DNA of 64,000 nt, taken from NCBI GenBank assembly GCA_905233185.1, contig CAJODB010000003.1, positions 30,137-94,136 on the forward strand. The letters are read 5' to 3'. The notes below the pieces were generated by a model. The model was not told the origin of the DNA. It made no database searches and saw nothing but the letters and a program-made list of their open reading frames with translations. Positions within the stretch are counted from its first letter, which is position 1, and each line of letters starts with the position of its first letter. This DNA comes from an uncultured Alphaproteobacteria bacterium. GTDB taxonomy: Bacteria; Pseudomonadota; Alphaproteobacteria; UBA3830. The position numbers and the translations under genes are program-made. Below, piece by piece: positions 23,672 through 56,933 of this stretch.

Positions 23672-23680
23672 CCCCCCCCC
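23672..23680 (-). repeat. G9 homopolymer (C9 on +) 23 bp upstream of the OMP promoter -35 box
   Basis: + strand gagattCCCCCCCCCgcaattttt; minus strand AAAAATTGCGGGGGGGGGAATC. Confidence 0.9.
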
Positions 23681-36795: not shown

Positions 36796-38268
36796 CTACT
36801 GTACAAGCGTTTTTGGTACAAATATTGCTGTATAAGCATCCATGCAATGCCATCGCAAGTAATAATTCTGCATTTTTTCATGCGACAACAGATAATCCAT
36901 GTCCTGACCAAAAGTTGGGAACAGAATTATTGTGTTTTCATCTGCAAGATCCAAATCGTTTACCAATCTAACGGCATTAACCTCATATGTGTACTTAAAA
37001 TTCAAGAAAAAGTTCCAATTGAAAAAGGTGATTATCCTGGTACCAATTGGATCTGGAGCGGCATTGTTAAAAATCACACATATGATTCTTTTTCCCTGCA
37101 CTGATTGCTTATACAAGTAATCAACAACCTGTATATCATAATGCCTTTTTTCGTACATTCGATTCAGATGCGCAGCACTTGTATACACATCTTTCCAAAG
37201 CGGGAGTAACATCAAACACACCGCTCCGAGCTGTATCCACAAATTGTTATATTTGCGCAAAGAATGCAAAAAGCTCGCAAACGCAGGAAGACTTAAAATC
37301 ACTGGAGGAAGAAAAAGATAAATCGAGTGTAGATTCAGGAAAAATATCGCAAAGAAATACCCCCCCCCGGCAAAAAGTAGAGAATCCACAAAAAGGGCCT
37401 TTTTATCATCATAGTAAATTATAGAAAACGATCTTACAACACACAATATTCCTGTCATCCACAAGATGGGTTCTAAATTCAGTAGTTCCAAAACCAAAGC
37501 TAATCCACGTAATTCAGAACGCCCTATTTTGTATGTCCAATTTGGCGGGTTTTGAAACCACAAATATGCGTATGTCGCAATGTAACTCAAGGCAACAATA
37601 ATGAGAGCTCCATAAAATAGGCGATCTTTCTTCGTAAGTTGCTTAAACCCAAATAAAAATCTCGTAAATGCAATGATTAAAAACGTTCCGAAAATCGGTT
37701 CTTTTGCATAAGTCATGTATGCCGCAATGAATAACGACACGACATAGTACTTTGTGGATTGCATCTTCTCTGCTTTCCATAAACTCAGCATGAACGTCGC
37801 ATACAAAATCCAGATTACCCTCTCTGCACTCGTAAGCGTTATGTTCACTCCCCAAAAGCTTGCTGAAAACACCAGAATCGCAATAGCAACCAAGCTAGCA
37901 AAATAGTCATTGTCTGTTATCTTTAGCAGAAAATTTAACAAAAATATCATACCGACAAGGAATGAAAAGCTGTTCCAAAGATAGTGTGCTGTTACGGTAT
38001 TTCCAAATGGCATAAGTAGCAGGATATTGTAATCAGCCAATCCTAGTGGCCAAAATCTTCCATCTGCCTGCCAACCAAAAATAGGTTTTCCAATGGCAGT
38101 GGAAGTCCAAAACTGGCAATCATCTCCGTAGACCCAATTGGCATCATACATGATAAGGGTTATTCCAAATGCAATCGCGATTCCTATTATCGAATAGGCG
38201 ATGGTTTTATTTATCTGAATATTTGAATTGCTAATTTTCTGAAAACCATCAAGAATACTCTTTAACAT
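36796..38268 (-). CDS. Multi-TM glycosyltransferase-like (GT-C type) membrane protein carrying an in-frame G9 tract
   Basis: About ten TM segments; YGDDCQFW near the first periplasmic loop; ...LLFAGGGYFFAIFF... encoded through GGGGGGGGG. Confidence 0.65.
   Translation of the reverse strand: MLKSILDGFQKISNSNIQINKTIAYSIIGIAIAFGITLIMYDANWVYGDDCQFWTSTAIGKPIFGWQADGRFWPLGLADYNILLLMPFGNTVTAHYLWNSFSFLVGMIFLLNFLLKITDNDYFASLVAIAILVFSASFWGVNITLTSAERVIWILYATFMLSLWKAEKMQSTKYYVVSLFIAAYMTYAKEPIFGTFLIIAFTRFLFGFKQLTKKDRLFYGALIIVALSYIATYAYLWFQNPPNWTYKIGRSELRGLALVLELLNLEPILWMTGILCVVRSFSIIYYDDKKALFVDSLLFAGGGYFFAIFFLNLHSIYLFLPPVILSLPAFASFLHSLRKYNNLWIQLGAVCLMLLPLWKDVYTSAAHLNRMYEKRHYDIQVVDYLYKQSVQGKRIICVIFNNAAPDPIGTRIITFFNWNFFLNFKYTYEVNAVRLVNDLDLADENTIILFPTFGQDMDYLLSHEKMQNYYLRWHCMDAYTAIFVPKTLVQ
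37360..37368 (-). repeat. In-frame G9 homopolymer (C9 on +) inside the membrane protein gene
   Basis: + strand aaataCCCCCCCCCggcaaaaag; codons GCC GGG GGG GGG TAT TTC on minus. Confidence 0.9.
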
Positions 38269-44912: not shown

Positions 44913-46055
44913 TTAAATAGCCAAAACTATGCCATTTTCAGGCTTCCAATACAGGAATACCTCATCTTCCCATTGTATAGGACGTTCAGCAGCACGTACT
45001 AAGTTAGCTACAGTCGCAAGTACAGTAACTCCTGATGCTAAAAGTACGTGATATATGGACACGTCACCTAGATAAACAATATCCTTTACAATTCCATTGG
45101 TCCAATTGTAATCGCCTTTCGGAATAACAGTTGTAAGTACGACTTTTTCCGGGCGAATCGCTACGCTTATCTGCGCTCCTACAGGGACAGAAGCCGAATG
45201 AGTAACAAGTAAATTCTTTTCCATTGCCGTTGATTTTACTATGACGTGGTCTGCTTGTTCTTCAACAATAATTCCATCGAATAAATTAACGGAGCCGATA
45301 AAATTCGCCACATATTTTGAATTTGGATACTCATATATTTCAGTTGGACCTCCAACCTGCAAAATTCGTCCTTCTCTCATGAGACCGATGCGAGTTGACA
45401 TGGTCATTGCTTCTTCTTGATCATGTGAGACCATAATAAAGGTAACACCGACTTTTTCTTGAATATTAACAAGTTCTAATTGTGTTCTTTCACGCAATTT
45501 TTTATCGAGAGCAGCGAGAGGTTCATCAAGCAAAACCAGTTTCGGATGCTTTACAAGGCTTCTGGCAAGAGCGACACGTTGGCATTCTCCGCCTGAAAGT
45601 TGATCAGGTTTGCGCTTTTCATACCCGCTTAATTGGACTAGCTCAAGATAGGCGCTTACGCGATCACGGATTTCTCCTTTCTGCATTCCTTCCTGAATTA
45701 ACCCAAAGGCGACATTCTGTTCAACTGTCATGTGGGGGAAGAGAGCATAAGATTGGAAAACCATACTGACAGGACGCTTATAAGGAGGAGTGTCTGTCAT
45801 ATCTATACCATCGATGAATATTTTTCCTGAGGTCGGTGATTCAAAACCAGCCAGCATGCGCAATAGTGTCGATTTACCGCATCCTGAACGACCAAGTAAC
45901 GAGAATAATTCTCCACGATATATCGATAGAGACACATTATTTACTGCTACACGTCCACCAAATGTCTTTGTAAGATTGTTAATAGATACGTAAGGACGAG
46001 CATTTGGATCTTGCCAAGGTTCTATGTTGCTGAGATGTTTTGATTGCTCTGGCAT
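44913..46055 (-). CDS. potA: Spermidine/putrescine ABC transporter ATPase PotA
   Basis: LLGRSGCGKSTLLRMLAGFESPTSG; LSGGECQRVALARSLVKHPKLVLLDEPLAALDKKLRE; VSHDQEEAMTMS; TOBE domain. Confidence 0.94.
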   Translation of the reverse strand: MPEQSKHLSNIEPWQDPNARPYVSINNLTKTFGGRVAVNNVSLSIYRGELFSLLGRSGCGKSTLLRMLAGFESPTSGKIFIDGIDMTDTPPYKRPVSMVFQSYALFPHMTVEQNVAFGLIQEGMQKGEIRDRVSAYLELVQLSGYEKRKPDQLSGGECQRVALARSLVKHPKLVLLDEPLAALDKKLRERTQLELVNIQEKVGVTFIMVSHDQEEAMTMSTRIGLMREGRILQVGGPTEIYEYPNSKYVANFIGSVNLFDGIIVEEQADHVIVKSTAMEKNLLVTHSASVPVGAQISVAIRPEKVVLTTVIPKGDYNWTNGIVKDIVYLGDVSIYHVLLASGVTVLATVANLVRAAERPIQWEDEVFLYWKPENGIVLAI

Positions 46056-46219
46056 AATGCTTTTCCACTAAAAAAATTCTAATACGCAAAGAATACAGAA
46101 TATTGACGGACAAAACAACGCTTCTCATACGTAGGGGAAAGATGAAGCGCTTTAAAAATCTTTTTATTTCCTTAACTATTTCCTATTAAAATCAATGTAA
46201 TAAAGTCGGAGAATCTCTA

Positions 46220-46925
46220 TGTTCAACTTGTTTAAAATCAATTTGTGTAAAAATTGCGGGGGGGGGTATTCGCCTTCTTACACAGGATTTTGCGTGGATA
46301 CAAACCATATAAAGGCGGTGTATTAATTGAATTCACTTTCAGTATTCCCGTTTGTATCACTCTTCTATTTTTTGTATCTGATCATTATCGTTTTTATGAA
46401 TTGAAAAACAAAATAAAAACTTCCGCATATTTACTTGCAAGCATGGTGCAGCAAATAAAAAATAGCAATTCAGATAAACAAATAACAAAAGCAGACATAA
46501 ATAGAATGGTGTATGCAAGTTGTCTTAATCTTTTTCATACAAACAGTATGTTTAAGCCTTATCCATTCGGAATATATTACAAAACGCGTTTTCACTATGT
46601 AAAGAAGGAAAATGATAATTACAAATACTGTTTTTGGACCTCGGATACAGGGAATGGTGGATTTTCTTTTAATGGAGGAATGTATAATTCAAATCTGACA
46701 TCTACAACAAAGTCGCAATCTCAAGTGGAAGCGATACATCCTGATTTGGTTTGTTATAAAGACGGCGAAGAGCGCTTGCTTATTATATGTTTTTATGGTG
46801 CTGTAGGTTTTACAAAATCAAAGCTTGGATTATTTTTATTGGAACCTAAATTCGGAGATAATGGTAATTTCGTTTATAAATTAGTTATTACTCCAAAACC
46901 GGGATTATTTCCGCCTGCATGGTAA
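46220..46925 (+). CDS. TadE/pilin-like protein, frameshifted at G9 as written (upstream ATG 46220 is out of frame with the pilin ORF 46254..46925)
   Basis: Prepilin-like YKPYKG|GVLIEFTFSIPVCITLLFFVSD (G-1, E+5); SD GGAG before ATG 46220; paralog at 56197..56933. Confidence 0.7.
46258..46266 (+). repeat. G9 homopolymer in the 5' end of a TadE/pilin-like gene
   Basis: TGTGTAAAAATTGCGGGGGGGGGTATTCGCCTTCTTACACA. Confidence 0.95.
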
Positions 46926-46974
46926 GGAAATTTTTATTTTGAATATTTTTATATATTTGCTTTCTGAGTATAAC

Positions 46975-47025
46975 TTTCTTCAGGATAATAAAAGCTCGCT
47001 GAGTCTGTTTATTATCCTGAAGAAA
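46975..47025. terminator. Bidirectional terminator between convergent genes
   Basis: 18-bp perfect inverted repeat TTTCTTCAGGATAATAAA/TTTATTATCCTGAAGAAA with 15-nt loop. Confidence 0.85.
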
Positions 47026-47059
47026 TAAAAAAAATTTATATATTGATTCCTTTTATATT

Positions 47060-47530
47060 TTATATACTGAAGTTTGACTTAGTTTTATGGGCTATAATGT
47101 TATTGCTATGATCATATTTCTGTATTAAAGCGTTTCTTAACAATGTTATGAGAATAGTTGCATTAAATGTCATAGCCAAAGAAGAAACTTTTCCGGAAGT
47201 TAAGTAAATAACAGAAAAATTCTCGAACTCCCTTTTTGCGTCTGGTGAAAATTCCGTAAGATCTTCTTCATTTATGCACTCAATTCCTAGCCTTTTAAAA
47301 TTATCTACAGCCTGAATTAGTTGATCATTTCCCGAACCGTGGGCGAGCTCTTCAATCTGGGTTAAGGTGTCATTTAGTGGCTGTAGTTTTTCTTGAGCAC
47401 GCGCAAAACTTCCATTAGGTGACAGCAAAACGCGAATATCATCTGGTATTCCTTCTCCTACATCTGAAGCAAGAACAACTCCGATATTCAACATTATTGC
47501 TGAAGCAAACAAAAGTACTTTTTTATTCAT
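47060..47530 (-). CDS. Secreted hypothetical protein
   Basis: Signal peptide MNKKVLLFASAIMLNIGVVLAS; good SD on the minus strand. Confidence 0.6.
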   Translation of the reverse strand: MNKKVLLFASAIMLNIGVVLASDVGEGIPDDIRVLLSPNGSFARAQEKLQPLNDTLTQIEELAHGSGNDQLIQAVDNFKRLGIECINEEDLTEFSPDAKREFENFSVIYLTSGKVSSLAMTFNATILITLLRNALIQKYDHSNNIIAHKTKSNFSI

Positions 47531-56196: not shown

Positions 56197-56933
56197 ATGA
56201 TCCTGAAAGCGAACCAACCTATTTTGTGCAAAATTCGTGGGGGGGGGTATTTGCCTTCTTGCACAGGACTTTGCGTGGTTACAAACCATATAAAGGCGGC
56301 ATATTAATCGAATTCGCGTTTAGTATTCCAGTTTTTATAATTCTTCTGTTTTTTGTCTCTGATCATTATCGCATTTATGAATTAAAAAACAAATTGAAAA
56401 CTTCTGCATATCTTGCAGCAAGCATGACTCAGCAGATAAGTAATACACGATCAGATAAGCAGTTAACTGCAGCAGATCTTGCAAGAATAACGTATGCATG
56501 TTGCCTGAATTTTTTCCATACGAATACTATGTTTAATCCATGGCCGTTCGGAATAAGTTATTCCATAAATTTTATATATGTAAAGAGATTAAACAGTAAT
56601 AGTTATCAATATCAGTCCTCTTGGGGAAGTACAGAAAGTGGAGTCAGTCCAGTTAATATGGGAAGATCCGTTGGCGGTATATCAACAAAAAAATTAAGTG
56701 AAATAGAAAATGTAAATACTGACTTAGTATGCAGTAGAGATGGAGAAGAGAAACTATTTTTAAACTGTACTTACAGAAGAATGCTAAATTTTGATAAATC
56801 AAAGATCGGGTTATTTTTACTTGATCCGCAAATGGTGAAAGGAGGTATGCATACAACTAATAGGTATCCTGATTTGCTATATTATCAGATAGTTATAAGT
56901 CCGAAACCTGGATTATTTCCTGCGAGAAATTGA
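56197..56933 (+). CDS. TadE/pilin-like protein paralog, frameshifted at G9 as written (upstream ATG 56197 out of frame with pilin ORF 56226..56933)
   Basis: YKPYKG|GILIEFAFSIPVFIILLFFVSD; close paralog of 46220..46925, including the tract, leader and upstream sequence. Confidence 0.7.
56239..56247 (+). repeat. G9 homopolymer in the 5' end of the second TadE/pilin-like gene
   Basis: TGTGCAAAATTCGTGGGGGGGGGTATTTGCCTTCTTGCACA. Confidence 0.95.

Follow-up and report, generated by a model that had tools for sequence, protein, structure and literature searches.

Probable poly-G phase variation of a large, default-OFF family of TadE/TadF-like pilin genes in an uncultured gut alphaproteobacterium

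Results and Discussion

The 64,000-nt stretch of DNA analysed here (the window), from an uncultured alphaproteobacterium, contains a pilin-like gene, starting at 46219, that is split between two reading frames at a run of nine guanines (G9). It belongs to a family of TadE/F-like pilin paralogues, about 30 in number and dispersed over the source genome (G000), nearly all of which share one layout: a promoter-like box, a Shine-Dalgarno (SD) sequence, an ATG, a short leader, a G-tract and the pilin. The best explanation, to which we give a probability of a little over three in four, is slipped-strand phase variation at poly-G tracts in a large pilin family that is OFF by default and whose products would be assembled by the tad system.

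In the focal gene (coordinates in Table 1; sequence read from 45600 to 47400), the leader open reading frame (ORF), MFNLFKINLCKNC, comprises 13 codons from the ATG, then the G9 tract, and ends at 46326. A preceding sequence-only reading had given the ATG as 46220, one nucleotide too far downstream, but had correctly recognised the SD sequence ahead of it (given as GGAG, here GGAGA) and the 35-residue length of the leader peptide. The pilin frame, GGVLIEFTFSIPV..., spans 46314-46922, and the domain runs to 46922. By frame arithmetic, the leader and the pilin can be joined only when the tract length is 1 modulo 3, ie G10 or G7, so that the gene is out of frame at G9, as that reading had calculated. 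It had also noted a prepilin-like signal with G at -1 and E at +5; in 51 sequences of the family neither the first G nor the E of this motif varies.

Table 1. Features of the focal pilin gene and of the second copy in the window
Feature	Position	Strand	Remarks
Promoter-like box CTTAACTATTTCCTATTAAAAT	46171..46192	+	48 nt 5' of the ATG; similar boxes at most other copies; promoter function presumed
SD sequence GGAGA of the leader	46208..46212	+	Read directly; aligned copies are G/A-rich at the same distance
Leader ORF MFNLFKINLCKNCGGGYSPSYTGFCVDTNHIKAVY, 35 amino acids as assembled	46219..46326	+	ATG 46219-46221; stop TAA 46324-46326
TTG of the mechanically called ORF (46254-46925)	46254..46256	+	Abuts the tract, has no SD sequence, not conserved in paralogues; judged not to be the start
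G9 tract, putative switch	46258..46266	+	In-frame fusion of leader and pilin needs one more G
Pilin-frame coding sequence 3' of the tract	46267..46925	+	Basic end of prepilin leader; G|GVLIE cleavage motif at 46314; stop 46923-46925
Second copy	56197..56933	+	Leader ATG 56197; G9 56239-56247; pilin 56295-56930; same out-of-frame register

A protein search returned 32 matching stretches in the source genome; a congener yielded up to 50. The copies in the source genome have in common a leader, in many cases resembling MFKxFxxILRKNC, followed by the tract, TATT..., a run of basic residues and GG-I/V-LIEF. A homopolymer of nine Gs, or in a few cases eight, lies near the 5' end of the coding region, within the leader, in nearly all of them: 24 of the 26 scorable copies have G9 and the other two G8. 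Three stretches (L035, L051 and L052; L-numbers denote stretches around tracts or paralogues) were excluded from these figures, being affected by an indel downstream or by an assembly gap. Under strict scoring none of the 26 is in frame. One G is lacking in 23 of the G9 copies, and the remaining G9 copy and both G8 copies have one G too many, ie two opposite registers are present and both are OFF. By frame arithmetic, a change of one unit would toggle between the truncated and the full-length product in all scorable copies. In G007, a congeneric metagenome-assembled genome (MAG) from red deer, 31 of 33 copies have G9, with one G8 and one G10; the leader ATG is present in 32 of the 33, and none of these 32 is in frame. 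For independent copies, one third of them ON, the chance of finding all OFF would be 2.6e-5 for 0/26 and 6e-11 for 0/58; because the copies are paralogues, these values make the argument look stronger than it is.

The same design recurs in other genera of the bacterial family with G9, G10, G11 or G14, again mostly OFF (for example G10 in G016 and G14 in G020). In G008 the tracts range from G6 to G9 and one or two copies are ON; ON copies are also present in G015 and G034. The relatives with named records are two uncultured MAGs, RUG14145 and the alphaproteobacterium Red_deer_1_mag_5, both of which we take to be rumen samples; the group is presumably GTDB order RF32. Substitutions in the source genome fall preferentially at third codon positions, both in the leader (922 vs 768 and 673) and in the pilin frame after the tract (1718 vs 1298 and 1188), a modest bias in each case and not a clear one in the red-deer congener. 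On the minus strand of the window, at 23672-23680, a further G9 follows GCGCAAAAATTGC, as in the pilin leaders, with no pilin ORF behind it; it is possibly a relic.

The abundance of these tracts was compared with chance. The window, at 36% GC, holds six G9 runs vs 0.04 expected, and none of 100 dinucleotide shuffles reached six. Over the 1.30 Mb of the source genome the counts of G7, G8, G9 and G10 are 2, 7, 47 and 2, and in the red-deer congener 0, 5, 72 and 7; G9 numbers near these were found in no other genome searched. About half of the G9 tracts in the source genome belong to the pilin family. The excess of G9, together with an arrangement that recurs in nearly every pilin paralogue, is more than chance.

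The leader ATG is present in all 26 scorable copies of the source genome, with an SD-like sequence at nearly all, and no SD sequence precedes any pilin-frame ATG, GTG or TTG in any scored copy. A pilin-frame start is lacking altogether in four copies (L007, L044, L050 and L067), two of which, L007 and L044, have a pilin-frame stop codon at the edge of the tract; in the congener such a start is missing from more than half of the copies. In one paralogue, L066 (C10:36331), the tract is replaced by AGAGGTGGG, and leader and pilin read MLKLINIFLKKICRGGYFIHQVLSAKKQKNKGGILIEF in a single frame. Judging from its sequence, this copy is locked in frame and shows what the fusion protein looks like. Because pilin-frame starts lack an SD sequence or are missing, and because L066 fuses both parts, the leader ATG is supported as the probable true start of the pilin genes. 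The sequence-only reading had taken the TTG start for an artefact and the gene, with the leader as part of it, for one that is OFF or dependent on slippage at G9; the distribution of SD sequences, the missing pilin-frame starts and L066 bear out both views. Homologues without the leader, which might have spoken against it, were not seen, and the leader recurs in paralogues and related genomes. Translation from a TTG or ATG beside the tract, with the leader as a regulatory upstream ORF, has in its favour that such an in-frame codon adjoins the tract in many copies of the source genome. These codons are not conserved, never have an SD sequence and are missing from most copies of the congener, and in L066 reading continues through from the leader ATG, so we give this arrangement next to no weight; the TTG and other internal starts were ruled out.

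The protein is best compared with the TadE/TadF minor pilins of tight-adherence (Flp) systems, with which it shares the G-1/E+5 prepilin motif, a long N-terminal helix and a tad locus in the genome. It differs from them in the very high copy number, the variable middle, the homopolymer in the leader and the weakness of the profile matches. The focal pilin matches the TadF profile with E=0.004 and 17.5 bits, under the curated cut-off of 27.3, and 9 of 51 family members match TadE, likewise weakly (best E=1.1e-4). A confident AlphaFold2 model (mean predicted local distance difference test score 93.3) has an N-terminal helix at residues 2-47 and a beta domain. Searches of the PDB by sequence and by fold gave no usable match among solved structures. 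Within the family the ends of the pilin are conserved, and variability is highest at residues of about 100-140. The tad locus (C1:6658-15527) has matches to Peptidase_A24, RcpC, secretin, CpaE-like, T2SSE and two T2SSF proteins, assigned as the peptidase, RcpC/CpaB, secretin, CpaE-like protein, CpaF, TadB and TadC.

Taken together, these features point to the following scheme. Slipped-strand mispairing during replication would lengthen or shorten the tract by one or a few Gs, so that the gene alternates between an OFF state, the one assembled, which yields a truncated leader peptide, and an ON state, which yields a full prepilin. The prepilin would be cut at G|G-I/V-LIE by a CpaA-type peptidase and the cleaved pilin assembled by the tad locus, so that ON cells would display pilins, possibly in the service of antigenic or adhesive diversity. 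Tract length would then vary reversibly within the population, we infer from the sequences. Most probably this is a bet-hedging surface switch of a familiar type, though on an exceptionally large scale.

Poly-G phase variation has become known chiefly through mucosal pathogens. Genes of the poly-G switch type are now seen in uncultured gut alphaproteobacteria, where about half of the G9 tracts of the source genome lie on one pilin family with all scorable copies out of frame, and phase variation would explain the wrong annotated starts and the broken look of the pilin genes. It also raises the question of whether tract register alone can hold a large gene family 'default OFF', which can be addressed with existing metagenome reads. 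Neither phase-variable Tad pilins nor a phasome in these bacteria turned up in searches of the open-access literature. The closest precedent is, by analogy, the pilus switch of Bifidobacterium breve UCC2003, in which a G-tract splits an export-signal ORF from the pilin ORF in the sortase-dependent pilus genes bbr_0113 and bbr_1889. There the genome as annotated has the OFF length, mice enrich for ON lengths, and switching has been demonstrated by deep sequencing, the productive shift being mainly -1 (PMC9187656). Both cases concern a gut bacterium with a short, well-initiated export-signal ORF, an out-of-frame reference, a second ORF whose annotated start has no SD sequence, and fusion of the two ORFs by one-base slippage. 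They differ in that B. breve is Gram-positive and has two operons of sortase pili, whereas here there are about 30 to 50 single, dispersed Tad-type genes per genome, the shift is mostly +1, and switching is presumed. The Campylobacter phasome is similar in having many G-tracts in a low-GC genome, mostly within surface or modification ORFs, with lengths that peak at 9 (53%) and 10 (26%) (PMC6321876). Its genes are mainly for lipooligosaccharide, capsule, flagellar modification and restriction-modification, whereas about half of the G9 tracts here are in one all-OFF pilin family.

Several observations weigh against phase variation. The data are consensus assemblies, one genome per species, in which no within-population variation in tract length was seen. 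Tract lengths cluster at 9 more tightly than they do in Campylobacter. No copy is ON in either the source genome or the red-deer congener, although about one in three would be expected to be ON if switching were unbiased. MutS is intact in the genome, and loss of mismatch repair was ruled out on that account. The sharp peak would be explained by programmed recoding at a fixed G9, through slippage either of RNA polymerase (+1 G) or of the ribosome (-1, on GGG GGG); each copy would then yield a small, constant fraction of full-length pilin, and a change in DNA length would not be the switch. That length 9 is near-fixed in two species with every copy there OFF fits this, as does the TAG or TAA that usually ends the leader frame of the congener directly 3' of the tract. 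We nevertheless regard recoding as rather unlikely, since copies with an identical G9 differ in the correction required, +1 in some and -1 in others, so that no constant shift would serve, and since related genera differ in tract length (G016, G020 and G008, above). G9 and G10 also occur within unrelated genes without breaking their frame, so that slippage there would do damage, and the 80 nt 3' of the tract have no unusual RNA structure that might stimulate it (mean folding z of -0.30 for 26 copies in the source genome and -0.44 for 33 in the congener). Genes that use transcriptional slippage, such as Shigella mxiE, likewise have a homopolymer at the frame junction, but the shift of one length and one direction to be expected of recoding is not seen here. 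It is unlikely, though worth bearing in mind, that G9 in every copy is itself the working state, either with a recoding trickle of all pilins or with about one pilin at a time slipping ON; if true, tens of near-identical homopolymer switches would together form an expression system of the one-of-many type.

The OFF copies might instead be silent cassettes, donors that recombine into one expressed locus as Neisseria pilS does into pilE. The conserved ends and variable middle of the pilins would suit such an arrangement, and the tract-free, in-frame L066 could be the expression site. The OFF copies, though, look like complete genes rather than donor cassettes, because the promoter-like box is found at most of them and an SD-like sequence with a leader ATG at nearly all, signals that would be superfluous for donors, and we consider silent cassettes highly unlikely. 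The chance of a sequencing or assembly artefact, with true tracts longer or shorter or the copies pseudogenes, seems smaller still. Homopolymers are error-prone, tract lengths unlike the annotation have been reported (PMC9187656), and some copies (L051 and L052) stand at assembly gaps. Most G9 and G10 tracts within other, non-pilin ORFs are, however, in frame, and therefore an artefact is improbable; the same design also occurs with other lengths in independent genomes, and outside the tract the pilin ORFs are uninterrupted and conserved.

The promoter-like box, roughly TTTTCTTAAC...TTAAAAT, lies upstream of most copies in both the source genome and the congener. Its common form, CTTAAC(Y)ATT, also present at 46171-46192, presumably resembles the CtrA half-site TTAACCAT of other alphaproteobacteria. 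In some genera TTGAC precedes the tract; a role of the G-tract as promoter spacer was set aside, there being no consistent -10 spacing across genera by eye.

The in-frame tracts of the source genome outside the pilin family suggest a phasome like that of Campylobacter. The genes encode, among others, PMT_2-like membrane proteins, one Polysacc_synt_2 enzyme, two methyltransferases and a protein named MFS-like from its sequence only. Related membrane proteins with in-frame G9 occur in the window at 37360-37368 (minus strand) and at L002, L062, L030 and L056; the one scanned is PMT_2-like, and the tract context is common to three. In-frame G9 or G10 is also found at L053 (C11:33128), L054 (C11:40418), L055 (C11:43912) and L034 (C2:111920), the gene kinds being Polysacc_synt_2 (PseB-like), two S-adenosylmethionine methyltransferases and MFS-like. 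Two long non-pilin ORFs, at L001 (C1:22170) and L005 (C1:58985), are split at G9. Finally, an element GAC-G9-AATTCACTTTCTC is repeated at several contig ends (62011-62019 and 63972-63980 in the window; L149, L039, L059 and L046), and at L149 it precedes a long ORF that has a TadG-like RGAILI segment and no Pfam match.
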